Shown here: positions 2,112-12,712 of the stretch, piece after piece
Numbering within the stretch: the stretch's first letter is position 1
Layout of the letters: each line of letters begins with the position of its first letter
NCBI GenBank assembly: GCA_030692565.1
Contig: JAUYAO010000013.1
Coordinates: 1-38,721 of the forward strand
Length of the DNA: 38,721 bases
Direction: 5' to 3'
Origin: Nitrospira sp.
GTDB taxonomy: Bacteria > Nitrospirota > Nitrospiria > Nitrospirales > Nitrospiraceae
The notes under the pieces: generated by a model
What the model saw: the letters and a program-made list of their open reading frames with translations, nothing else
Told to the model about the DNA's origin: nothing
Database searches by the model: none
Program-made: the position numbers and the translations under genes

Positions 2112-2129
2112 TGGTGGCGGTGTCCCGGA
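2112..2129 (+). repeat. attL: 18-bp copy of the tRNA 3' end
   Basis: Exact copy of 12637-12654. In tRNA sense it is the encoded CCA, the discriminator base, the 3' acceptor strand and part of the T-stem. Mismatches begin immediately on both sides (T versus A on the left, A versus T on the right), which defines the core. The rest of the tRNA is absent here, so this is the element-generated duplicate and the functional tRNA lies at the right end. Confidence 0.85.
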
Positions 2130-2212
2130 AGAAATATTATTTTAGCCCGACAATCCGTGTCCCTCTGAGAGTTACAAGGGCTGATTCCAAGCGCGTGAAC
2201 GCCAAGAAATAG
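2130..2212 (+). other. Latent recombinase C-terminal tail, in frame only in the circular element
   Basis: If the two 18-bp repeats are recombined, the recombinase frame crosses the att core and continues here for 27 codons (2129-2211 region), ending at TAG 2210-2212. The predicted tail starts KKYYFSPTIRVP and holds nine Lys/Arg. In the integrated state this stretch has no start codon of its own in that frame and lies far from the recombinase. An open frame of 27 codons could occur by chance, so coding use is inference. Confidence 0.5.
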
Positions 2213-2315
2213 GTCTGTTCAATAAGGCCATTCTAGGTGGATGCCGAAGGAGGCGCACGGGCCGATTAGGAGGGGCGTCAGACTAAAGCCACAGAGTTAA
2301 GTAGCCCTTTCCTGA

Positions 2316-2401
2316 GTTCAGGAGCCTTGCCTGGCCAGTGTTTTACACGTTCAGAGCGACCGTTCTATAATTACTTTGGGCCGCTAGGGTAGCTCCTGAA
2401 C
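2316..2401 (+). promoter_or_regulatory. Promoter flanked by 10-bp inverted repeats
   Basis: TTTACA (2342-2347) and a perfect TATAAT (2366-2371) with an 18-base spacer form a strong sigma70-type promoter upstream of the first gene of the element. It is bracketed by GTTCAGGAGC (2316-2325) and its exact inverse GCTCCTGAAC (2392-2401). A related GTTCAGAGC (2349-2357) lies in the spacer. The layout suggests operators for a repressor that could bridge or loop the promoter. A small hairpin GCCGGT/ACCGGC follows at about 2402-2420. Confidence 0.6.
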
Positions 2402-2463
2402 GCCGGTATCTCTCACCGGCTGCGGCCCGTTTCTTCGGGAGGCGTCATTGGGAGGTGACGGAC

Positions 2464-3231
2464 ATGGCCATCCTTTCTACTGCATCTTGGGCCTTTGAAG
2501 CTCGCGACTCTGGGGAGGCCGAACGCTATCGTCTTCAGCGCGGGATGGTGGTCGGTCTTGTGTGGGGGTGTTCCAAAACTCAGGAAGTGTTTACCGCGTT
2601 ACAGAAATCCCGTAAGTTGGATGCCCCGGTACGGCACCTTCGCCGCGCGGTCAATCGAAAGGCCTCCCTCTCCGTTTTGAAAGCTGCCGAACAACAACTC
2701 TTTGTTCTCATTTTTGCCCATGCAAAAAACAAACAGGTGATTGGCTCGACCTTGGACACATACGTGCGCGGGCTCTTCGGTCAGTCTGTCCCTTGGATGA
2801 CTCAAGAGCTGATTCAGCTTTTCGTCAGCCAGTTATTCGCAATGGCTCGCGGGCAGGCGCTGGGGCGGCACTCCCGCGCGAGTTGGGCAGAACGTCTTCC
2901 GACAATCCCAGAATTCCCTGCCGGCGCGACACTCCGAGAGCAAAAGGCCATTATCCGTCGGCACCACAAAGCCTTGCTACACGCGGCTTTGCGCACAGGA
3001 GGGCGCGCTCCAAAGGAAAAGGTCCCTAGCGTGCTTCGCAATGCCGCCTGGATGTATTGTCATGTCGTCGAGGGGCAATCCATTCATGGCTTGGCGCGAG
3101 AGTACAAAGCCCTCACGAGTCCCGCTGCCACCGAAGGGCACTACACGGGCCGCGCGTTGGTCCAACGGGCCATTCGCAACACCGCGCAGCGTCTGCATCT
3201 TCCTGCCGCACGCCCCAAATCTCATCGCTAG
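2464..3231 (+). CDS. Hypothetical protein with possible C-terminal HTH, first gene of the element
   Basis: A 255-residue protein that I do not recognise. It is rich in Arg and Ala and has no signal peptide or membrane segment. Near the C-terminus the stretch HVVEGQSIHGLAREYKAL, followed by GRALVQRAIRN, resembles a helix-turn-helix, so a DNA-binding role is possible. The ATG at 2464 is chosen because GGGAGG ends eight bases upstream; a GTG at 2455 in the same frame is less well placed. It lies directly downstream of the promoter with inverted repeats, the position expected of an early regulator or replication gene. It is separated from the next gene by about 90 bases with two palindromes. Confidence 0.7.
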   Translation: MAILSTASWAFEARDSGEAERYRLQRGMVVGLVWGCSKTQEVFTALQKSRKLDAPVRHLRRAVNRKASLSVLKAAEQQLFVLIFAHAKNKQVIGSTLDTYVRGLFGQSVPWMTQELIQLFVSQLFAMARGQALGRHSRASWAERLPTIPEFPAGATLREQKAIIRRHHKALLHAALRTGGRAPKEKVPSVLRNAAWMYCHVVEGQSIHGLAREYKALTSPAATEGHYTGRALVQRAIRNTAQRLHLPAARPKSHR

Positions 3232-3236
3232 GTAGT

Positions 3237-3315
3237 TAGACCAGGTCTACTTTAAGCGGCCACTTCCAGCCTCGTAGGTTGTCCCTAGTCGCGATTAAGG
3301 TTTTAAGCTTTAATC
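3237..3315. promoter_or_regulatory. Two palindromes upstream of the small Xre-like gene
   Basis: TAGACC-A-GGTCTA at 3237-3249 is a perfect 6-1-6 palindrome. At 3293-3315 GATTAAGG and CTTTAATC form an imperfect inverted repeat around TTTTAAG, ending seven bases before the ATG at 3322. Neither is followed by a T-run, so operators are more likely than terminators. The second would be suited to autoregulation by the gene that follows. Confidence 0.45.
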
Positions 3316-3321
3316 AAGCGC

Positions 3322-3528
3322 ATGAAACCTGCGCGAAACATCACACCTGAAGATCTTCGAGCCCTCGTCGCACGGAGCGGAGTCCCGGCCTACGTACTTG
3401 GAGGGCGAGCCCGCGTCAACCCGATCCAGCTGTCTCGTCTGATGCGTGGTCACGATCCGCTCACGCCCGAGATTGTGCGGCGAATTCTTGACGCGATTCG
3501 GCAGGAGGCCCTTGCCAATGGCCGCTGA
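3322..3528 (+). CDS. Small Xre-like helix-turn-helix protein
   Basis: A 68-residue protein. Residues about 9-45 (ITPEDLRALVARSGVPAYVLGG, then NPIQLSRLMRGHDPLTPEIVRRI) match the pattern of a short Xre/Cro-type helix-turn-helix: a first helix, a turn with Gly, a recognition helix with SRLMRG, and a following LTPEIVRRIL helix. Such proteins serve as phage or satellite repressors. The ribosome-binding site is weak (AAGCG), and a palindrome sits just upstream, consistent with low, autoregulated expression. The next gene starts inside its 3' end. Confidence 0.65.
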   Translation: MKPARNITPEDLRALVARSGVPAYVLGGRARVNPIQLSRLMRGHDPLTPEIVRRILDAIRQEALANGR

Positions 3529-3697
3529 ACAAATCAGGTCGGGCTTTGGGCTGACGCGCGCCTCGACCGGCCTCACGAATGCGCATGTTGGCCTCATCAA
3601 GATGTTGGCGGCGCGAGCGGTAGCGGACTATCTGTGCGAGGCCGAAGCGGAGGAGCAGCGCACCGAGAACGATCACGATCAGGAGGCTACCGCATGA
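3518..3697 (+). CDS. Small acidic-tailed phage-type protein
   Basis: A 59-residue protein of unknown function. It begins at ATG 3518, overlapping the end of the Xre-like gene, with GCAGGAGG about ten bases upstream. It ends by ATGA overlap with the primase start at 3694. The central part (IKMLAARAVADYLCEAEAEE) is a predicted amphipathic helix and the tail is charged. Small proteins of this style often sit just upstream of primases in phages and islands, but I cannot assign a role. The tight overlaps argue that it is translated together with its neighbours. Confidence 0.6.
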   Translation: MAAEQIRSGFGLTRASTGLTNAHVGLIKMLAARAVADYLCEAEAEEQRTENDHDQEATA

Positions 3698-5724
3698 CGC
3701 GCATTTTAGATTCTCAGGACGCGTTTCTCCGGACTATCGAGCAAGCAGGCCTCACGCCGCCAGAACGCATCATAGCGGATGGCCGACTCCATCGCTTTTC
3801 AAGCAACGGAGATCCTGACGACGACGCGGGATGGTACATCCTGCACACCGATGGAATTCCGGCAGGCGCATTTGGCTGTTGGCGTTCTGATGTCAATGAA
3901 ACATGGTCGGCAGGGCCTGGCCCCGAGGCAACGGCAGCTGACCAGGCCAACCATGCTCGGCAGCTTTTGGACCTTCGACGGACCCGTGAAGAGGAAGAGT
4001 GGCGACGGCATGCGGAAGCGGCGCTGCGTGCCCAGGCTCTTTGGAACCAGGCGGCTCCGGCACCGGTAAGCCATCCCTATTTGCAGCGGAAGCGGATTCA
4101 GTCGCACGGCCTACGGGTCGATGGTGAGAATCGGCTGATCGTGCCGGTGATGATCGGCGGTACGCTCTCCAGCTTGCAATTTATCGCGCCGGATGGGGGA
4201 AAACGATTTCTTCCTGGTGGCCAGGTCCACGGCGGGTCCCATGTGCTCGGCTCCATTGAGGGCGCAATGGTCATCGGTGAAGGGGCTGCCACATGCGCCT
4301 CGATTCATGAGGCATCGGACCTGCCCACGGTGATGGCGTTCTCGGCTGGAAATCTTCTCTCGGTCGCACGGGCTCTGCGAGCCCAGTATCCACGCGCTGC
4401 GGTGATTGTGGCGGGTGACAATGACGTGTCTGGAATCGGCCAGGCGAAGGCACAAGAAGCGGCGGAGGCAATCGGCGGCAGGGTAGTGCTGCCGGACGAA
4501 GCGGGAACCGATTTCAATGACGTGGCGCAGGCCAGCGGTCTCGATGTGGTGCGTCTCCGTATTCATGCGGCCATGCCCTCTGGCCGGCACATTTTTGACG
4601 AGGTCTACGCGTACCTCGGGAAATTTGTCTCGTACCCTTCGGAGGCTGCTCACGTGGCGCACGCCCTGTGGATCGTGCACACGCATTTGATGGACGCGTC
4701 GGAGAGTACGCCGCGCCTGGCGTTCCTTTCGCCGGAGCCAGGGTCGGGGAAAACGCGGGCGCTAGAAATTACCGAGACGCTCGTCCCTCGTCCTGTCGAA
4801 GCCATCAACGCCACGCCCGCCTATCTCTTTCGGAAGATTTCTGATCCGGCAGGAAGACCGACCATCTTGTTTGATGAAATCGATACGGTGTTCGGCCCGC
4901 GTGCACGCGAGCATGAAGAAATTCGAGGTGTTATCAACGCCGGTCATCGACGTGGGGCGATGGCGGGCCGGTGCGTGATTAAGGGAAAGGAGATTCTGAC
5001 GGAGGAGCTTCCCGCCTTCAGCGCCGTGGCGATGGCAGGACTCGGCAATCTGCCCGATACGATCTTAACGCGCTCCATCATCATCAGGATGCGTCGGCGG
5101 GCACCAGGGGAACACGTTGAACCGTACCGCCGACGAATACATTCACCAGAGGGCTACCGCTTGCGAGACCGCTTGGCGAGTTGGGCTGCCGAGCATGAAG
5201 CTGCCTTGAATTTGTGCCCCGCGATGCCGGAGGGGATCACCGACCGAAATGCCGACGTGTGGGAAAGCCTGTTGTCCATCGCCGATGAGGTAGGAGGAAT
5301 CTGGCCGGATCGGGCTCGTGTATCCGCTGTAACTCTTGTAACCGATGCCATGGGAGCCCCACCTAGCCTAGGTGTCCGCCTATTGAAGGACCTGCGGACG
5401 GTGTTTGGGGATCGAGAATGTGCCTCGACTAATGACTTGTTGGCGGGCCTGATCGATGTTGAGGATTCTCCTTGGGGGGATCTCAAGGGAAAACCCTTAG
5501 ACGGGCGACGGCTCGCTAAACTACTTCGCCCCTACGACATCACGCCTAAACCCATCCGAATCGAGACCTCCGTTTTCAAGGGGTACACCCGCGCCGATCT
5601 TCACGATGCGTGGACACGGTACCTCCAACCGGAATCTTCTTCTCCACCTATAGGTCTCCCTGACATAGCATCGGTTACATCAGTTACAAAAATTACGGGG
5701 GAGGAGGTTATTTATGTGGATTGA
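3694..5724 (+). CDS. Primase-helicase (Toprim plus DUF3631-type ATPase)
   Basis: A 676-residue replication protein. The N-terminal part (residues 1-130) resembles the leader of phage/plasmid DNA primases. Residues about 190-290 form a Toprim domain: IGEGAAT with Glu196, then VAGDNDVSG with Asp242 and Asp244, the metal-binding acids. The C-terminal half is an ATPase with Walker A PEPGSGKT (347-354) and Walker B ILFDEID (391-397), followed by a region matching DUF3631, found in mobile-element primases. It likely primes and unwinds DNA to replicate the excised element. The start at 3694 has an AGGAGG seven bases upstream; a longer frame back to 3634 has no such site. It overlaps both neighbours, indicating translational coupling. 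No separate zinc-binding primase domain is visible. Confidence 0.85.
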   Translation: MTRILDSQDAFLRTIEQAGLTPPERIIADGRLHRFSSNGDPDDDAGWYILHTDGIPAGAFGCWRSDVNETWSAGPGPEATAADQANHARQLLDLRRTREEEEWRRHAEAALRAQALWNQAAPAPVSHPYLQRKRIQSHGLRVDGENRLIVPVMIGGTLSSLQFIAPDGGKRFLPGGQVHGGSHVLGSIEGAMVIGEGAATCASIHEASDLPTVMAFSAGNLLSVARALRAQYPRAAVIVAGDNDVSGIGQAKAQEAAEAIGGRVVLPDEAGTDFNDVAQASGLDVVRLRIHAAMPSGRHIFDEVYAYLGKFVSYPSEAAHVAHALWIVHTHLMDASESTPRLAFLSPEPGSGKTRALEITETLVPRPVEAINATPAYLFRKISDPAGRPTILFDEIDTVFGPRAREHEEIRGVINAGHRRGAMAGRCVIKGKEILTEELPAFSAVAMAGLGNLPDTILTRSIIIRMRRRAPGEHVEPYRRRIHSPEGYRLRDRLASWAAEHEAALNLCPAMPEGITDRNADVWESLLSIADEVGGIWPDRARVSAVTLVTDAMGAPPSLGVRLLKDLRTVFGDRECASTNDLLAGLIDVEDSPWGDLKGKPLDGRRLAKLLRPYDITPKPIRIETSVFKGYTRADLHDAWTRYLQPESSSPPIGLPDIASVTSVTKITGEEVIYVD

Positions 5725-6151
5725 ATCCACGAAGCCTCTTCGGGTGCAGTTCAGGGGTGGCATGGAGATTCGCCTTCAGCCTGGAGCGCCGAAAGAATTT
5801 CCCGACGAGGACGGAAAAAAGTTGCTCAAGCAGGCTGTGGGCAAAGTGATGGCCGTAGATCGCCCTCTTAGAGATGAGGAGGGCGCTTCTCCCATTGCCC
5901 CCCTCCAACCTGGCTGGCTCGTGGCCTATCGCGACGAGACATACCGGTTACGGGGCGGCTGCGACGAGCGAGACCATGGGACCGTTCAAGAATGCCAATG
6001 GAATGGGACGGCCTGGACAATTCACTTGACCGACGGGCAACTCCTGCCGCTGTCACGAGTCTTGAGCGTGGGAAAGACGAACGCCGCTGGGGAGGTGATC
6101 GCAGCCTGGACCACGCGGGACTGCGGCTATGACGGGGAAAGCCATCGGTAA
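5714..6151 (+). CDS. Hypothetical mobile-element protein, coupled to the primase
   Basis: A 145-residue protein of unknown function. It starts at ATG 5714 inside the last codons of the primase, after a GGGGGAGGAGG ribosome-binding site. The first 45 residues (ESTKPLRVQF, RLQPGAPKEFP, KKLLKQAVGKV) resemble a short segment seen at the start of several phage and island proteins. The second half (LQPGWLVAYRDETYRL and onward) looks like a small beta-rich domain. No catalytic motif is visible. It closes the replication block: a 124-base gap with a palindrome separates it from the packaging genes. Confidence 0.65.
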   Translation: MWIESTKPLRVQFRGGMEIRLQPGAPKEFPDEDGKKLLKQAVGKVMAVDRPLRDEEGASPIAPLQPGWLVAYRDETYRLRGGCDERDHGTVQECQWNGTAWTIHLTDGQLLPLSRVLSVGKTNAAGEVIAAWTTRDCGYDGESHR

Positions 6152-6275
6152 TGTAATACTTTAAGTATTGCAGGGCTGGTTAAACTAAAATTTAGAAAGT
6201 CTAAGGCAATCAATTGGTTAGGCAATACAGTCAGAACCGGTTTACCGGATTTTATACAAAGGATGGGCTAGCGGT
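6152..6275 (+). promoter_or_regulatory. Gap between replication and packaging genes with palindromes
   Basis: AATACTT-T-AAGTATT at 6155-6169 is a perfect 7-1-7 palindrome, flanked by TGT and GCA. CCGGT-TT-ACCGG lies at about 6238-6249, and TATACA (6253-6258) could be a -10 element, though no clear -35 is seen. The gap is AT-richer than its surroundings. It most likely controls late (packaging) expression; there is no T-run to support a terminator. Confidence 0.4.
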
Positions 6276-6761
6276 ATGAGCGGACTACCAGGGCAACGGT
6301 CTACTAAGCAGGTAAATCTCGCACGCGGCTATCGGCGAAACGTGCTGGATGACATGGACGGACGCTTCAAGCCTGTCCGTGAGGCTAAGGCGCGTTGGCG
6401 TCAGCTGGCCTCGGACCTTGGAGGTGTCAGCGAACTGTCCTACCAGAAGCAGTCGCTCTTGTGGCGCTTCGTCTTTCTGGAAGGTTGGATTGAAGACCAA
6501 GAACGCCGGATGCTGCTAGGCCAGGCGGTCGATGAATCTAAGTGGCTATCGTCGCTGGGTTCCTACACGTCGCTCCTCAGTCGGATCGGACTGGAACGGA
6601 AGGCGCGTCAGATTACGCCCCTAGATCGCTTACGGCAGCAATCATCAGGTGCCCCTAGCCTTCCCCCATCCACGCAGGAGATCGCTCAGCCTGGCCTGAA
6701 TGGCGCTGAGGGATCGCTACCGACGGAGACCATCATTGAGGTGACCCGTGCAGCAAGTTGA
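6276..6761 (+). CDS. Terminase small subunit (by position)
   Basis: A 161-residue protein placed directly before, and overlapping by 14 bases, the terminase large subunit, where phages encode TerS. TerS binds the packaging site of phage DNA and delivers it to TerL. The sequence is helical and basic in the first half (RGYRRNVLDDMDGRFKPV, EGWIEDQERRML), with a low-complexity tail from residue 125. No classical HTH is obvious, so the call relies mainly on context and size. In phage satellites, a private TerS redirects packaging to the satellite's own DNA. Confidence 0.55.
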   Translation: MSGLPGQRSTKQVNLARGYRRNVLDDMDGRFKPVREAKARWRQLASDLGGVSELSYQKQSLLWRFVFLEGWIEDQERRMLLGQAVDESKWLSSLGSYTSLLSRIGLERKARQITPLDRLRQQSSGAPSLPPSTQEIAQPGLNGAEGSLPTETIIEVTRAAS

Positions 6762-8208
6762 CCCGTTGGAATTCTACAGCTTGTTGCAGTGGATCGACGG
6801 GCGCCCATTGCTCGACGTGATGGAACCGTACCGGCAGGAGATCCATCGCACGGCCCTCTATTCATTCCGGCCCGATGGGTCGCCTCGATACCGGCGCACC
6901 CTCACAGGGCGGGCGAAAAAGAATTCCAAGACGACCGACGCCGTGTTGGCTGCGCTCTATCGGTGCCTGATCTGGAAGTCTCTAGGTGGCCGAGGCAACC
7001 AAGTATATTTCGTGGCCAGCGACTTGGGCCAGGCCAACGACGACTTGGACCTCTGCAAGCTCATCATTCGGCGCAATCCGCTGCTCGATGCTGAATTGAC
7101 GATCAGGTCGAATGTCATTGAGCGAAAAGATGGTGAAGGCTTCCTGGAAATCCTCGCGGCTGGTGATGCCGATGGACTGCACGGAAAGACGTACGCCTTC
7201 CTGGTCGTCGATGAGCTGCATACGCAACGCGACTACAAGGTTTTGGAAGCCTTGGAAATCGACCGGACACGACCGGATGCGCAGCAATGGTTTGCCAGCT
7301 ACGCCAGCCTGTCCCGTGCTGCTGGTGTGCCGATCAATGACATGTTGCGGCAGCATGAGAAGAGTACTGACCCTCGCCTCTACGTCTCCTGGTACAGCGG
7401 CACGATTGAAGAAGCCAACCCCTCCTTGAACGGTCCACTCGGCCCGACGCTAGAGGATATTCTCGATGCGCAGCGGTCGCTCCCGTCCTGGATCTTCCGG
7501 CGGCTGTGCCTGAACCTCCCTGGCCAACCGGACGGCGCAGCCTTCGACGCAGGGAAAGTGGAGGAGGCGGTTGTTGTAGGCCGGACAATCATTCCACCTC
7601 AAGCCGGTGTGACGTATCGCGCGTTTTGCGACTTGTCTGGCGGCGGGGCCGACGATGCGACCATGGCGATTGCGCATGGCTATGAAGGCGTGGCGATTCT
7701 GGATCTCCTGATTGACCAGGGCCAACGCGTCAATGGCACGTTCTCGCCAGAGGAAACGGTCAAGAAGTTTGCCGACGTGCTGAAGGAATATGGCTGTGCA
7801 ACGATCACAGGGGATCGGTATGCGGCGCAGTGGCCGGTGCAAGCCTTCTTGAAGCACGGCATCACGTACCGGCCTGCCGAGCACAATCGTAGCCAGCTCT
7901 ATGCGGCGTTGGAACCGCTCGCGAATAGCGGCCAGGTCGAACTGCTTGACCATCCCAAACTGTTTCCCCAACTCATCGGTCTGATTCGCAAAGGTGAAAA
8001 GATCGACCACGTCAACGGCGAGCACGACGACCATGCGAATAGCGCCGCCGGTGGACTGGTCTCAGCTCATCGGCAAGCCGGGCGGCCTGTCGGTGTCTTC
8101 ATGGATCCGACCGACGATCCTGATGCAATGGAGCTGCGGAGTGCGCGGGATACGCAAAACATTCTTCAAGCAGTCGGGACACGCAAATTTTGGTTCCCAG
8201 GCGAGTGA
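6748..8208 (+). CDS. Terminase large subunit
   Basis: A 486-residue packaging motor. The N-terminal ATPase has a degenerate Walker A (LTGRAKKNSKTTD, residues 52-64) typical of phage terminases and a Walker B FLVVDELH (151-158). The C-terminal RNase H-like nuclease shows acidic residues in FCDLSGGGADD (Asp295, Asp302/303), ITGDRYA (Asp356) and GEHDDHANS (Asp427/428). The protein pumps DNA into proheads and cuts concatemers. All expected catalytic positions seem present and the length is normal, so it is probably functional. It starts with GTG at 6748 behind GAGGTGACC and overlaps the small subunit. The expected next gene, portal, is missing. Confidence 0.9.
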   Translation: MQQVDPLEFYSLLQWIDGRPLLDVMEPYRQEIHRTALYSFRPDGSPRYRRTLTGRAKKNSKTTDAVLAALYRCLIWKSLGGRGNQVYFVASDLGQANDDLDLCKLIIRRNPLLDAELTIRSNVIERKDGEGFLEILAAGDADGLHGKTYAFLVVDELHTQRDYKVLEALEIDRTRPDAQQWFASYASLSRAAGVPINDMLRQHEKSTDPRLYVSWYSGTIEEANPSLNGPLGPTLEDILDAQRSLPSWIFRRLCLNLPGQPDGAAFDAGKVEEAVVVGRTIIPPQAGVTYRAFCDLSGGGADDATMAIAHGYEGVAILDLLIDQGQRVNGTFSPEETVKKFADVLKEYGCATITGDRYAAQWPVQAFLKHGITYRPAEHNRSQLYAALEPLANSGQVELLDHPKLFPQLIGLIRKGEKIDHVNGEHDDHANSAAGGLVSAHRQAGRPVGVFMDPTDDPDAMELRSARDTQNILQAVGTRKFWFPGE

Positions 8209-8224
8209 CCGAAGGAGGGTCGCG

Positions 8225-8401
8225 ATGGACAATCCGCTTGAAGGCGCAGTGAAGCAAACGAAGGCCGGGCAATGGACGTGGAGCATTCATCAAGGCGGTG
8301 TGCCGATGGCGAGCGGCGGCGGGTATTTGAGTGAGGGTGAAGCCATCGATGATTTGCACGACGTGTTGCGCGACTACGCGGAGTATGAGGCGGCGACATG
8401 A
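8225..8401 (+). CDS. Small hypothetical protein (58 aa)
   Basis: It starts at ATG 8225 behind GAAGGAGGG and ends by ATGA overlap with the next small gene. The sequence GQWTWSIHQGGVPMASGGGY, followed by LSEGEAIDDL, resembles the one-repeat layout of DUF1508/YegP-type small proteins (strand, Gly-rich turn, strand, helix), but the match is loose. It sits where HK97-type phages carry the portal gene. Function unknown. Confidence 0.6.
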   Translation: MDNPLEGAVKQTKAGQWTWSIHQGGVPMASGGGYLSEGEAIDDLHDVLRDYAEYEAAT

Positions 8402-8490
8402 CCAAGTTACCGGCAAAGAAAAAACCGAGGAAGCCGAAGCCACCTGAACCGAGTTTCTGGCAGAAAATTATTGGCAAATTGAAAGGATGA
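8398..8490 (+). CDS. 30-residue highly basic peptide
   Basis: ATG 8398 overlaps the preceding stop (ATGA), and the frame ends three bases before the protease gene's ATG. The peptide is Lys/Pro-rich at the start (MTKLPAKKKPRKPKPPEP) and ends in an amphipathic FWQKIIGKLKG. It may be a real small protein, a coupling ORF, or the remnant of a deleted portal gene. Support is positional only. Confidence 0.45.
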   Translation: MTKLPAKKKPRKPKPPEPSFWQKIIGKLKG

Positions 8491-8493
8491 ATC

Positions 8494-9138
8494 ATGAGCA
8501 CAACGAAGTGGGCAACGGCGCAGGTGAAGAGTCTCGATAATCGACGGATTGAGTTTGTCGCCTCGCATGAACGGGTGGATCGTGATTCCGAAGTGGTAAT
8601 CGTGGCAGGGATCGACCTAATTGAGTTTCTGATAAATCCTATCTTGTGTTTGCAACACGATACGAGAAAGACGGCGGTCGCGCGGGTGGAGAACTTACGG
8701 CGGGCCCGCATCGACGGCGCTATGGCGCTCATCGGTAACGCGGTGTTCCCTGATCGACCGGCAAGCAATGACGCCTTGGCCGATGTGAAGGCGGGCTTGC
8801 TTAATTCTGTGAGCATTGGCTTTCGGGTCCTGGAGCGAGGCGGACCGATCTTGCCCGATCAACACGGACAGACGTTTCTAAAAACGTCATTGCTGGAAAT
8901 CAGTCTGGTGACGCTACCGGCCTGTGCAACGTGCGTGGTGACGTCCAAGTCTGCGGGCGGGTGCCGATGCAGCGAACAGAACGCGCTGGACGGACTGCTG
9001 ATCGTCGGGGACGAAATTGTGTTCGACGAAGATCTCACACGCATGGTCCGCACGGCGGCGCGGCAGAGCATGCGGCAAGTGATCCACGATGAGACGCGGC
9101 GAGCAGTGAATTATTACAGAGGGCGGATCGACGATTAA
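8494..9138 (+). CDS. HK97-family prohead protease
   Basis: A 214-residue protein of the U35/S78 prohead protease family, which trims scaffold and capsid proteins during phage head assembly. The catalytic His lies in CLQHDT (His55) and the nucleophile Ser in LLNSVSIGF (Ser107). The conserved closing strand LLEISLVTLPA follows at about 142-152. The C-terminal extension (CRCSEQNALDGL onward) is helical and unassigned. It follows the 30-aa ORF by three bases. Its presence without a major capsid gene is odd: in satellites that remodel helper capsids it could act on the helper's proteins; otherwise it is a leftover of a lost head operon. Confidence 0.85.
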   Translation: MSTTKWATAQVKSLDNRRIEFVASHERVDRDSEVVIVAGIDLIEFLINPILCLQHDTRKTAVARVENLRRARIDGAMALIGNAVFPDRPASNDALADVKAGLLNSVSIGFRVLERGGPILPDQHGQTFLKTSLLEISLVTLPACATCVVTSKSAGGCRCSEQNALDGLLIVGDEIVFDEDLTRMVRTAARQSMRQVIHDETRRAVNYYRGRIDD

Positions 9139-9163
9139 ATCATTTTCATAAGGGAGGTTTGTC

Positions 9164-9697
9164 ATGTTGGGATTTGCAAAAGTAGAAACGGACTTGATTG
9201 CAGTTGAAGACAGTCCAGAGGTGCAGGCGGCAGATAGGCCACTTAGGGAGGCGCAGGCCACGCAGGAGCAGACCGAGGCCGAGGAGCAGCGCTTGATTCA
9301 AGTCGTCACGAGTGACGTACACCGCGCAAGCGATGACCGGATTGAGGAGGCCCACCAGCGGCTCGCGATTCGCAAGGGTTCGCAAAGTTCATGGCATTTG
9401 CCGGAAGCGCAAACGGCGCGAGAAGAAACCAAAGCGCATCGAGCGATCTATCAAGCGGCGGTTTCGGCAGCGCGGATTCGCCTGGAAGATGCTGGCAAGG
9501 AACAGCTCAAGAGGCTGTTAGGGCAACTCAGTCCACTCATCATGGACGTACAGCGGCTTGCGGGAGAGATCGAAGCCTTGAGGCAGAGGGTGGGTGACTG
9601 CGGCGGAGACTTGGGTGAGCATCCTTGTCCGGTTCTGTTGCCTGGGCAATTGGTGAGCTTTCAAATGGAGCTGGCGAAGGCCAAAGGCCTGCTCTGA
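9164..9697 (+). CDS. Coiled-coil hypothetical protein
   Basis: A 177-residue protein behind a clear GGGAGG site. Most of it is predicted helix rich in Glu, Gln and Ala (residues about 20-110), with a second helical block (QLSPLIMDVQRLAGEIEALR) before a short Cys-containing tail. It occupies the position of the capsid gene but lacks any HK97-fold features. By composition it could be a scaffold-like or capsid-size-determining protein, but this is speculation; no family is recognised. Confidence 0.6.
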   Translation: MLGFAKVETDLIAVEDSPEVQAADRPLREAQATQEQTEAEEQRLIQVVTSDVHRASDDRIEEAHQRLAIRKGSQSSWHLPEAQTAREETKAHRAIYQAAVSAARIRLEDAGKEQLKRLLGQLSPLIMDVQRLAGEIEALRQRVGDCGGDLGEHPCPVLLPGQLVSFQMELAKAKGLL

Positions 9698-9814
9698 CGG
9701 CGTAGGGTGAAACCGAGCTCGGGGGGCGCTCGGGTTGACAACCGTTGCCGGGCCTACGTCGTCTCGACCTCCCACCCGGCAGCGGACCCCTTTCTTGTAC
9801 AGGAGCACGAGCAT

Positions 9815-10255
9815 ATGAACACCTTTGGCGATGGAATCACCGTACAGACCTCAACCGGCGAACGGCTAGGCGTACATATCTGGCAGCGTGAAAACTTGTC
9901 GCCGATCATTTTCTTGAACGGGAAAGTGATCTGCACGCCGGATGATGCGACGTTGACGCCGTGGACATGTTCCAGCTGTCATGCCTCCAAAGTGTTTTGG
10001 TCGCCACGCATTGCGCCAAGATGCTGGCAATGCACTCCCCCGACGATTGCGGAGAAAGAATTTGTGATTGACTACGCGGTGAAGTGTGCGGAGGGGATTG
10101 CGAAGCGCCTTGATGACCCGCTCGGCAAGCTTCAGGTATTCCGAATCCTGGATGAATTTGTGGCGAGTGGAGACCTCGTGAAATTGAACAAACTGGCCCT
10201 TGAAATGTTGTGGATTGCATTTTTGTCAAAGCACAACCTGGAGGACCTGCTATGA
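9815..10255 (+). CDS. Zinc-finger-like hypothetical protein
   Basis: A 146-residue protein starting at ATG 9815 (CAGGAG upstream); a longer upstream frame from 9707 lacks a good site. Cys52-x2-Cys55 and Cys70-x2-Cys73 (CSSC and CWQC) form a probable zinc ribbon. The rest is helical (AVKCAEGIAKRLDDPLGKLQ, then EFVASGDLVKLNKLALEMLW). Function unknown. It overlaps the next zinc-ribbon gene by ATGA, so the two are probably made together. Confidence 0.65.
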   Translation: MNTFGDGITVQTSTGERLGVHIWQRENLSPIIFLNGKVICTPDDATLTPWTCSSCHASKVFWSPRIAPRCWQCTPPTIAEKEFVIDYAVKCAEGIAKRLDDPLGKLQVFRILDEFVASGDLVKLNKLALEMLWIAFLSKHNLEDLL

Positions 10256-10407
10256 ACCGCTGGATGCAAACGAAAGAGTATCGCTGCCCTGACTGCAAGG
10301 CGGTCTATCTGCACGACAAAGGGCACGAGCACGCCTGCTATCGCTGTCCCAAACGCCACGAGCCGGTGAAAGTGAGCACGGTGCAGGATGTCGCCCGCGC
10401 AGCGTAG
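10252..10407 (+). CDS. Zinc-ribbon mini-protein (51 aa)
   Basis: Cys12-x2-Cys15 and Cys29-x2-Cys32 (CPDC, CYRC) form a compact rubredoxin-like zinc ribbon that makes up most of the protein. The start at 10252 overlaps the previous stop (ATGA) and follows GGAGG. Such ribbons in phages often bind nucleic acid or act as anti-repressor-like adaptors; no specific role can be given. Confidence 0.65.
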   Translation: MNRWMQTKEYRCPDCKAVYLHDKGHEHACYRCPKRHEPVKVSTVQDVARAA

Positions 10408-10515
10408 CCTGGCGGCACTCAAGCAGCTGGGCTATCGCGCCAAGGTTGTCGAGAAGTGGAACCCGTTTGCCAAGATCCGGCAAGACCTCTTCGGCGGGGA
10501 CATCCTAGCCCTTCC
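10388..10515 (+). pseudogene. N-terminal fragment of a phage/MGE nuclease-like protein
   Basis: The frame starting at ATG 10388, overlapping the zinc-ribbon gene, gives MSPAQRSLAALKQLGY and VVEKWNPFAKIRQDLFG. This is the hallmark opening of a small protein family common in phages and islands (endonuclease-fold-like, about 100-120 residues, from memory). After about 42 residues (GDILAL) the similarity stops, and the frame continues only as antisense of the RHH gene at 10505-10684. The downstream half has therefore been replaced by other sequence. Confidence 0.55.
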
Positions 10516-10684
10516 CCTTCGGCAGCGTGCCTTTGCGTTCCAGCTCGGCCACGTGTGCGCGGAGCAGGCGAACGAGGTAGCCTTGCAGGCTGTGCCCTTC
10601 CAGCGCCGCCGCCGCCTTCAGCCGCTGGGCGAGGGACGCGGGGACGCCGCGAATGTAGAGGACCTTGGAGGGTTCGGGAGGCAT
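10505..10684 (-). CDS. Ribbon-helix-helix regulator, antisense to the rest of the element
   Basis: A 59-residue protein. The strand KVLYIRGVP, the helix ASLAQRLKAAAALEG and the helix SLQGYLVRLLRAHVAELE fit the FitA/Arc ribbon-helix-helix fold used by small repressors and antitoxins. No toxin gene follows: downstream there is only a 23-codon frame. The gene is the only leftward one in the element. It faces away from the plus-strand RHH gene across a shared 119-base promoter region. It is missed by length-filtered ORF finding, and larger overlapping frames in this GC-rich stretch are shadows. Confidence 0.6.
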   Translation of the reverse strand: MPPEPSKVLYIRGVPASLAQRLKAAAALEGHSLQGYLVRLLRAHVAELERKGTLPKGKG

Positions 10685-10803
10685 GGGGACGCATGATACC
10701 GCTCCGAACGGGGCGACGCAAGCAGGCTAGTATTCTTCTATAAGTAACGCTATACTATGCTAGCAATGTCGCTCTGCTCGCACTTACCGACAGGAGGCCC
10801 GCG
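10685..10803. promoter_or_regulatory. Divergent promoter region between two RHH genes
   Basis: An AT-rich island in GC-rich surroundings. TATACT (10751-10756) is a -10 candidate for the rightward gene pair. On the other strand TTGCTA and TATAGA with an 18-base spacer could serve the leftward gene. GCTAGTAT near 10726 and ATACTATGC near 10752 form a near-inverted repeat, the type of site RHH dimers bind. GACAGGAGG supplies a strong ribosome-binding site for 10804. Confidence 0.45.
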
Positions 10804-10962
10804 ATGAAGTCTATTCTGATCACCATCCCCGACTCGATCAAGGCGAAGCTCGATCAGCTGCGCACCCAAGGCTACACGCTCAACGGCTATGTGCGGGCCG
10901 TGTTGGAACGCGAACTAGCGGATAAGCCAATGAGGAGGCGCAGTGGAAGGAGGGCCGCATGA
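10804..10962 (+). CDS. Ribbon-helix-helix protein coupled to the recombinase
   Basis: A 52-residue protein. SILITIPDSIKAKLDQL, then TLNGYVRAVLERELAD, form the strand-helix-helix of an RHH DNA-binding protein, followed by a basic tail (RRRSGRRAA). Its stop overlaps the recombinase start by ATGA, so the two are translationally coupled. This position makes it a candidate regulator of recombinase expression, or an accessory or recombination directionality factor. That role is inference from gene order and size. Confidence 0.65.
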   Translation: MKSILITIPDSIKAKLDQLRTQGYTLNGYVRAVLERELADKPMRRRSGRRAA

Positions 10963-12680
10963 CACAACGGGTGGCCCTCTATGCGCGGTATTCATCCGAG
11001 CACCAAAAAGAAAGTTCCATCACGGACCAGTTCCGCAATTGCGAAACGCGAGCGACACGTGAGGGGTGGGCGATCACGGCGCGGTATGCGGATCGAGCGA
11101 TCAGCGGCACGACGACCGAACGCCCGCAGTACCAACAAATGTTGAAAGACGCGAAGGCGAAGCAGTTCGACATTCTGCTGGTCGATGATTTCAGTCGGTT
11201 GAGCCGCGACAGCATGGAAGCGGAGCAGACGCGCCGCCGCTTTGTCCATTGGGGTGTGCGGCTGATCGGGATCAGCGATGGCATCGACACGGCGGACAAG
11301 GGCCACAAGATGCTGAGCGGGTTCAAGAGCATGATGAACGAGCAGTTCATCAGCGACATGAAAGACAAGATCGTGCGCGGGATGCAGGGGCAAGCGTTGA
11401 ACGGCTTTCATTGTGGGGGCCGGATCTATGGCTATAACTTAGTGCCGGAACTCCATCCCACGAAGATCGATCCCTACGGCCAGCCTGAACGCATCGGGAC
11501 GAAGCTCGCCATTAATCCTGAGCAGGCGCACTGGGTCCAGTGGATCTTTGAAAGGTACGCTGAAGGCCTGTCACCGATTAAGATCGTCACCGAACTGAAT
11601 CGCCTGGAGGTGCCCGCGCCTGGAGCGGCCTATAAGAAGCGGCAGTATCGGCGCATGCCGACGTGGAGTGCTGCTGCCTTGCACGGTGAGTTGAGCCGAG
11701 GCACCGGCCTGTTGAACAATCCCTTGTATGTCGGGCGCTACGTGTGGAACCGCTCACGGCGTGAGAAAGATCCAGACACCGGTGTCCGGTCCCACATCGT
11801 GCGGGACCGGAGCGAGTGGATTGAGACACAGGTTCCGCATCTCCGTATCATCGACGAAGACCTGTGGACGCGTGTGAAGGCACGTCGCGCCGCCGTGAGC
11901 CAAGGCGTGGCTGCCCTTCGGGCCTCGCTCCACTGTCGGGCGCGGAGTACGGGGGCTGGTCCCAAGTATTTGTTCTCCGGTGTGTTGGTCTGCGGACAAT
12001 GCGGGGGGAAGTTCGTCATTTGCGAAACAACGAAATACGCCTGTAGCACCTGGCGCACGCACGGGGCGACTGAACGAACCTGTACGAACAGTCTCAAGGT
12101 CAAGCGGTCAGTGGTGGAGGCGGTACTCCTGGACGCCATCCAGAACGAGCTGTTCACGGAGGACGGGCTAGCGGTGTTCAAGGAAGAAGTAGCCCGACTA
12201 CAGGCCGAACACCGACGGACGCGGCGGCCTGACCAGGCGCAGGCAAAAAAGCGCTTACAGGAGGTTGACCAGGAAATCGCGAACATCATGCAGGCGATCA
12301 AGGCGGGGATTCTCACGCCCAGCACCAAGGCGGCGTTGGAACAGGCCGAGGCTGAACGGGTACGCCTCCTTCAATCCGTAGAAGGGCACGACAAGCGGCT
12401 TGAGAAGGTGGCCACATTCCTGCCAAACCTGAGCGAGCGCTTCAAGGCACTGGTGGACGATCTCGCGGCGGTGACTCAGGAACACGTGGACAAGGGGCGG
12501 GGGATGTTGCGGCAGCTGGTCGGGGGGCAGATTCCGCTGCATGCGACCTCGGATGGGGCGGAGCGCTTCCTGACCGCAGAACTCTCGGGGGACTATTCAG
12601 GGCTGGTGGAGCTGGCGGTAGGGCCTAAAATAAATATGGTGGCGGTGTCCCGGATTGAACGGGAGACCCGCGGCTTATGA
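10959..12680 (+). CDS. Large serine recombinase (integrase of the element)
   Basis: A 573-residue site-specific recombinase. The resolvase domain begins YARYSSEHQ with nucleophile Ser12 and contains FSRLSRDSMEAE. The Recombinase domain follows (GGRIYGYNL; LNNPLYVGRYVWN), then a zinc ribbon (CGQCGGKF with later CSTW and CTNS cysteines) and a coiled coil (residues about 410-475). It cuts and joins attP and attB to integrate or excise the element. The last codons lie inside the att core and the antisense strand of the tRNA; stop TGA 12678-12680 overlaps the anticodon triplet. In the excised circle the frame would instead continue through attL sequence and end with a different, longer basic tail. 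It is coupled to the upstream RHH gene. Confidence 0.92.
   Translation: MTQRVALYARYSSEHQKESSITDQFRNCETRATREGWAITARYADRAISGTTTERPQYQQMLKDAKAKQFDILLVDDFSRLSRDSMEAEQTRRRFVHWGVRLIGISDGIDTADKGHKMLSGFKSMMNEQFISDMKDKIVRGMQGQALNGFHCGGRIYGYNLVPELHPTKIDPYGQPERIGTKLAINPEQAHWVQWIFERYAEGLSPIKIVTELNRLEVPAPGAAYKKRQYRRMPTWSAAALHGELSRGTGLLNNPLYVGRYVWNRSRREKDPDTGVRSHIVRDRSEWIETQVPHLRIIDEDLWTRVKARRAAVSQGVAALRASLHCRARSTGAGPKYLFSGVLVCGQCGGKFVICETTKYACSTWRTHGATERTCTNSLKVKRSVVEAVLLDAIQNELFTEDGLAVFKEEVARLQAEHRRTRRPDQAQAKKRLQEVDQEIANIMQAIKAGILTPSTKAALEQAEAERVRLLQSVEGHDKRLEKVATFLPNLSERFKALVDDLAAVTQEHVDKGRGMLRQLVGGQIPLHATSDGAERFLTAELSGDYSGLVELAVGPKINMVAVSRIERETRGL
12637..12654 (+). repeat. attR: 18-bp tRNA 3'-end core
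   Basis: Exact match to 2112-2129. It starts precisely at the tRNA's terminal CCA and ends in the T-arm, and it also encodes recombinase residues (VAVSR). This is the crossover region for integration and excision. Confidence 0.85.
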
Positions 12681-12712
12681 GTCCGCTGCTCTACCAACTG
12701 AGCTACACCGCC
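12637..12712 (-). tRNA. tRNA with anticodon CAU (tRNA-Met most likely)
   Basis: A complete 76-base cloverleaf on the minus strand: acceptor GGCGGTG/CACCGCC, D-arm GCTC-AGTTGGTA-GAGC, anticodon loop CTCATAA with CAU at 12677-12679, T-arm TCCCG-TTCAATC-CGGGA, and an encoded CCA. The anticodon stem has an A-G mismatch at its loop-closing pair (31-39). CAU could mean elongator Met or Ile2 (lysidine-modified); the G1-C72 pair argues against the usual initiator, and elongator Met is favoured. Its 3' end is the attachment site of the element, which restores the gene intact on insertion. The recombinase transcript runs antisense into it. Confidence 0.9.

Follow-up and report, generated by a model that had tools for sequence, protein, structure and literature searches.

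Our analysis shows, as far as sequence comparison can, that the conserved full-length form of a Nitrospira large serine recombinase (LSR) would be encoded by the excised circle of its element and not by the chromosome, and that integration would swap the C-terminal tail of the enzyme for codons borrowed from a tRNA gene. The element lies in the window, by which we mean the whole stretch of 38,721 nucleotides that was analysed.

The element and its insertion site

The integrated element occupies about 10.5 kb (2112-12636), as judged from an 18-bp repeat, a matching empty site in genome G030 and the domains of its proteins. A domain search found genes for a primase-like protein, a prohead protease, a terminase large subunit and the large serine recombinase aboard, a content that resembles that of a phage satellite or a reduced prophage. 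Its core, TGGTGGCGGTGTCCCGGA, is an exact 18-nt repeat that extends no further on either side, with one copy at attL (2112-2129) and the other at attR (12637-12654). The right copy forms the 3' end of a minus-strand tRNA-Met(CAT) called by ARAGORN and Rfam (12637-12712), the integration target, which is reconstituted at attR. In G030, a genome from the window's genus, the left-flank gene is present (90% amino-acid identity), and the order is left flank (79% over 638 nt), core, intact tRNA-Met and right flank (95% over 1336 nt relative to the window, tRNA included), with no element between. This element-free site, which we read as an empty attB, confirms that the predicted boundaries in the window are real.

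Upstream of the recombinase, a 52-aa ORF (10804-10962, plus strand) has a stop that overlaps the recombinase start codon (ATGA); it gave no Pfam match and had no counterpart in eight other elements checked, and it might be a regulator or a directionality factor. An int-alpA RNA (RF02996) was called by Rfam at 2377-2442 on the plus strand (38.4 bits against a cut-off of 35.8) and in the circle would lie some 165 nt past the stop of the full-length integrase; none scored above cut-off in the stretches from six relatives. PADLOC, run on 8 proteins, returned no match.

Two predicted C-termini for one recombinase

The integrated form of the integrase is a plus-strand ORF of 573 codons followed by TGA (10959-12680), with Pfam matches to Resolvase (PF00239), Recombinase (PF07508) and Zn_ribbon_recom (PF13408), each above cut-off, in the order typical of LSRs and all retained in the integrated ORF. 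R10, S12 and S13 are invariant in alignment A1 (four distinct sequences), and we take S12/S13, with R10 nearby, to supply the catalytic serine near the N-terminus. A PDB sequence search with the integrase gave matches confined to residues 1-166 and none over the C-terminus.

In the integrated state the frame reads through the core and continues from VAVSR into IERETRGL and TGA, an end drawn from antisense tRNA sequence (12654-12680, plus strand). It stops eight residues past the core, with its TGA (12678-12680) overlapping the anticodon triplet (12677-12679). When the inner ends of the element are joined computationally, as in a circle, the predicted frame across attP reads ..VAVSRKKYYFSPTIRVPLR.. 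and VAVSR is followed by KKYYFSPTIRVPLRVTRADSKRVNAKK, a tail of 27 residues with nine Lys/Arg, giving a protein of 592 aa. The circle-only codons lie at 2130-2212 on the plus strand, at the other end of the element, and finish in TAG (2210-2212). The original prediction had described a recombinase frame spanning the 18-bp att core, an integrated form ending eight residues beyond it with its TGA over the anticodon, and a circle form gaining 27 residues, nine of them basic; the repeat, the ORF coordinates and the joined frame agree with all of this. A different crossover point that left the frame unaffected would have counted against it; every crossover point inside the shared 18 bp gives the same frame. 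A free attP contig was sought as a second copy of the tail codon pattern, and none was present in the window's own assembly.

The circle tail is conserved as protein

Twenty-seven open codons are weak evidence taken alone, as the original prediction had cautioned, and the strength of the case comes instead from comparison with relatives, which exceeds what a chance open frame would give. We read the circle frame wherever the other end of an element could be located, which yielded 11 tails: the window, eight other elements (47-68% integrase identity) and two near-duplicates. After the core start, the tail reads VAVSRKKYYFSPTIRVPLRVTRADSKRVNAKK in the window, VAVYRKKYYLSPTIRVPLRAIRPNSKDVNAKR in G026, VAVTQRRFYFGPKIHVPLRPARGLGARRARSVR in G396, VAVDRSKNYFGPEKQVILQREVNAA in G115, VAVDRFKHYFIASRLRVPLRIDGIKAATHLHR in the second element of G057 (G057E2), GGGEPGYDLFSPTIRVPLRPIKSRPALQ in G016, GGGHPQPALFYPTIRVPLRATKVGCGGPLPHFLHLLAGSS in G417, GGGHPLPDLFRPTILVKLLQHRRESTG in G247, VAGEGLGHYLTPKTLRISLRPNL in G235 and GCGEAIRSRFNPSVTIALTA in G054; the eleventh, from G057E1, is a near-copy of that in G115. 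All 11 joined frames are open, and the check proposed with the original prediction, alignment of the C-termini of relatives with the tail, found [FL]xP at an equal distance from the core in 10 of the 11, with VPLR in six. The exception, G057E2, has no P and needs one extra codon. Some lineages cross the core in codon phase 2 and others in phase 1, with the right arm shifted to match such that the tail stays in frame, which is hard to explain without selection on the predicted joined frame.

Several of these readings depend on how the ends were assigned. In G115, where the ends lie 96.5 kb from each other, and in G057, whose contig was treated as circular, the assignments were inferred from core and arm, with no attL within 60 kb and candidates farther off; for loci L061, L064 and L065 a convincing attL was not found. 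G026, at 85.5% nucleotide identity to the window over 76 nt, has no integrase left, and its tail was read in the window's frame; G057E1 was read in that of G115; both were omitted from the statistics on nine tails. The G026 locus (L145/L146) carries the window's left flank, attL and the conserved right arm, with an intact tRNA-Met only about 5 kb away and no integrase match; our reading is that this element probably decayed or was replaced.

Across the nine tails, the integrase frame had a mean BLOSUM62 score of 0.74 per column, compared with -0.84 and -0.12 for the two alternative frames, in which stops occur in nine of nine and six of nine tails, respectively. Shuffling residues within tails reached the observed score in 0 of 20000 trials, a test that ignores common descent. 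The window and G016, whose integrases are 55-56% identical, both encode FSPTIRVPLR with eight nucleotide differences, all eight synonymous, and none of 100000 random placements did as well; the same test gave 10 of 100000 for window/G417 and 1 of 100000 for G016/G417. The codon pattern for FSPTIRVP was found in 2 of 79 genomes of the genus, once in each and both times beside attL, with 0 matches for a reversed control.

These comparisons bear on whether the likeness of the tails might reflect a constraint on DNA, such as attP or another signal, and not protein coding. The first tail codons do lie within the attP arm, under dyad constraint (see below), and for them conservation of DNA alone is not rejected. 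Beyond the 50-bp attP it is rejected: TIRVPLR stays unchanged while synonymous positions vary. When TIRVPLR alone was tested, outside the attP arm, random placements did as well in 276 of 200000 trials for window/G016, 276 of 200000 for window/G417 and 4 of 200000 for G016/G417. Pairs with G396 were weak (25619 of 200000 with the window and 11512 of 200000 with G417), showing little synonymous excess, and window/G057E2 showed none because the G057E2 tail is one codon longer. Considering also the low scores and the stops in the other two frames, we regard a purely DNA-level explanation of the tail as very improbable. The putative circle tail as a protein segment conserved among elements inserted at several RNA genes is thus strongly supported, and with it the claim of the original prediction that a different enzyme would be made before and after integration, which is strong at this level of evidence.

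Joined frames outside this tail set look different. Those of G052 and G019 (27% and 25% identity) lack the motif and share IPF-G-V-AA-like ends, that of the 22-bp repeat in G045, where the integrase is frame-broken, also lacks it, and the G103 arm runs into a run of Ns.

The Ala-Ala ends, which resemble ssrA-like tags, raise the question of whether the tail could be a degradation signal, so that the circle form would be short-lived and integration would remove the tag and stabilise the enzyme, by analogy with the mycobacteriophage repressor. Seven of 17 attP-form tails end in Ala-Ala (G115, G052, G019, L063, L150, L151 and L152), against 10 of 337 and 4 of 84 background ORFs, though these tails are not independent and the G019 attL is weak. 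The window's tail, however, ends in NAKK, only one of ten tails in its clade (G115) ends in Ala-Ala, and the conserved part is internal and does not comprise the last residues. For this enzyme we consider a degron improbable.

A predicted dyad attP within the integrase codons

Reconstruction of attP gives a dyad, GGGCCTAAAATAAATA ... AGAAATATTATTTTAGCCC, whose axis falls on GT 12647-12648. Its predicted left half-site (12621-12647, plus strand) lies within integrase codons, and its right half-site, the P-right arm, lies at 2123-2149 (plus strand); from the dyad axis, the predicted crossover dinucleotide is that GT (2122-2123 in the left copy). The window's arms match at 12 of 17 outer positions, a level equalled at 1 of 5000 random places, and attP dyads were seen in all six elements tested, those of the five others, at the best of three registers, being equalled at 0-13 of 5000 random places. 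LSR structure, in the excerpted text of PMC3783163, predicts a dyad attP with about 50 bp contacted by a dimer, and the dyad predicted for the window fits that class.

Naturally joined forms

The window's circle form is a computational join, and relatives provide forms that are joined in nature. The G057 chromosome holds an integrase remnant, a frame of 203 codons, that is fused to the right arm of a second, tandem element and reads ..VAVDRFKHYFIASRLRVPLR.. with no computational joining involved. In G417, three contigs, which carry the integrase, a flank and a left end, have a 23-nt end in common. This would fit either a tandem array or a circle that coexists with an integrated copy, and another LSR of the same genome sits at its tRNA-Ala.

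Both states also occur among alphaproteobacterial relatives (about 34% identity), some of which end in tRNA-Met as ..VAGAGFEPAAFRL, while on four Paracoccus plasmids and one Komagataeibacter plasmid the frame passes a tRNA-Met-like core into other tails, from which the window's motif is absent. An attP dyad was supported for L060, L063 and the second core of L152 (12, 9 and 5 of 1000 random centres, respectively) and unsupported for L150 and L151 (680 and 411 of 1000). Plasmids gave at least 364 matching records, and of the 12 integrase ends read from them five lie in tRNA-Met antisense (one, L062, in a partial tRNA with no ARAGORN call), five are attP-like, one is degenerate (L153) and one is coreless (L059). 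The L152 plasmid (NZ_CP035287.1, Paracoccus) carries successive tRNA-Met-like cores at its integrase end (1080-1220; VAGS..VAGT..VAGG), as if attachment sites had accumulated. In L127 (G134, reverse complement of 1604-1680), the 3' end of tRNA-Met is tandem-duplicated 39 nt apart at the integrase end, and the frame through it reads GFEPLTFNLVAGRGFEPLTFGL; the arrangement looks like a scar of repeated integration.

Integrated ends are set by the RNA gene

From searches of relatives, the genus and the phylum, we read integrase ends at 28 loci from 25 other genomes in addition to the window. Counting the window, this makes 29 loci in 26 genomes. At 20 of them the frame terminates within a tRNA-Met, tRNA-Ala, tRNA-Glu or tmRNA gene, overlapping it by 22, 41 or 44 bases. 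Relatives whose C-terminus ended before the core would have counted against the original prediction; the intact frames that adjoin an RNA gene all pass it. Four loci are broken before the RNA gene (G001, G022, G045 and G086). Of the remaining five, G417 is in attP form and reaches the edge of its contig, the G417b frame stops in tRNA-like sequence with no ARAGORN call, and no RNA gene was found near G341, G308 and G308b. In the wider family this arrangement would be common and not universal, because 4 of 20 loci scanned for RNA genes (L015, L016, L019 and L021) had none nearby. A scan of genome contigs added one distant relative; a first scan of viral contigs yielded no relatives and a second yielded six loci, among which L065 ends in tRNA-Met; phage records gave 487 matches. 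The window's own genome carries a second LSR (36-40% identity; G000:C47:49885-51130), which lies near another tRNA-Met and appears as two pieces in our reading (L002 and L003).

The integrated ends are dictated by the RNA gene (IERxTRGL, GS, RI, GFEPLTFGL and others) and reach 2-9 residues beyond the shared part in eight circle/integrated pairs. The integrated form therefore looks like a truncated, altered enzyme, as read from its codons, and the circle form like the conserved full-length one. Ends that are whatever the RNA gene encodes would also be expected if the tail were needed for integration only, the swap being a tolerated side effect of a 3' attP and the integrated enzyme excising equally well; conservation of the tail tells us that the circle form is in use, and does not tell us that the integrated form has a different activity. 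On the other hand, the segment lost is conserved in sequence, which makes an effect-free loss less likely, and we hold a merely tolerated swap to be possible but rather unlikely.

A model for the tail swap

The explanation that we consider probable is that attP lies within the integrase gene, that integration swaps the conserved tail and thereby attenuates or re-regulates the resident enzyme, and that excision resets it. As a class, LSRs need no partner to integrate but do need a directionality factor to excise. The element's attP would sit in the 3' part of its own integrase gene, with the circle frame running through it into the conserved tail, and the full-length form would be the enzyme for integration. 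Because integration separates the attP halves at the 3' end of a tRNA or tmRNA gene, the integrated gene would lose the tail and take its last codons and stop from the antisense strand of the RNA gene. Without its tail, the resident enzyme may be attenuated or differently regulated and would recombine less, requiring a directionality factor, or full-length enzyme from another circle, for excision. Rejoining of the element ends would restore the full-length gene, so excision would reset it at once. The tail swap could in this way bias integration over excision, as the original prediction suggested. The tail follows the presumed last beta-hairpin of the zinc-ribbon domain, as placed from the excerpts of PMC3783163, and its IRVPLR stretch, which resembles a strand, may contribute a further strand, and its basic residues a basic end; given these features and this position, the simplest guess is that the tail takes part in attP binding or synapsis.

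Comparison with known systems

The archaeal SSV-type "suicidal" integrases likewise have attP within the integrase gene, often a tRNA target, and a gene altered by integration, and the complete archaeal gene has been likened to a directionality factor; the review, in the text available, describes self-disrupting recombinases as found only in archaea (PMC8371274). Those are tyrosine enzymes cut into two pieces called inactive pseudogenes (same excerpts), whereas the window's is a bacterial serine enzyme that would lose only its last 12-29 or so residues and keep its known domains. Mycobacteriophage integration-dependent immunity, in the text seen of PMC9262239, also places attP in coding sequence at a tRNA target and changes a C-terminus, but there it is the repressor that changes, losing an ssrA-like tag, and the integrase belongs to the tyrosine family; in the window attP lies in the integrase gene, not in a repressor, and the tail ends in NAKK.

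Among serine enzymes, the LI/A118 integrases have their domains in the same order and likewise use a dyad attP about 50 bp long, and a coding tail across attP is not described in the excerpts of PMC3783163. PLE 1 Int is similarly the LSR of a phage-satellite-like island, whose excision needs a directionality factor from the helper phage; its target, unlike the window's, is a V. cholerae repeat, and the portion of PMC6002521 at hand does not mention a change of the Int C-terminus. In the open-access literature we found no published case of a serine integrase with a conserved end encoded across attP.

Implications

More tentatively, and somewhat short of what we would call likely, bacterial serine integrases that target RNA genes may commonly hold attP in their own gene, such that the reading frame registers integration: the circle would encode a full-length enzyme able to integrate, the chromosome a truncated one with an RNA-gene-encoded end that is attenuated or re-stabilised, and excision would reset the gene. 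They would then be a counterpart of the archaeal suicidal integrases, with a tail that is structural in one clade and a degron in others. As tools for genome engineering, LSRs are gathered from integrated elements. If only the circle encodes the native C-terminus, LSRs obtained from integrated genomes would have an RNA-gene-derived end in place of the conserved tail and may not be the form that ought to be assayed. What keeps integrated elements quiet becomes a question that can be tested directly with the two protein forms, and, if the model is true, the swap would be a simple, reversible memory of integration within one gene, in bacteria and in the serine family.
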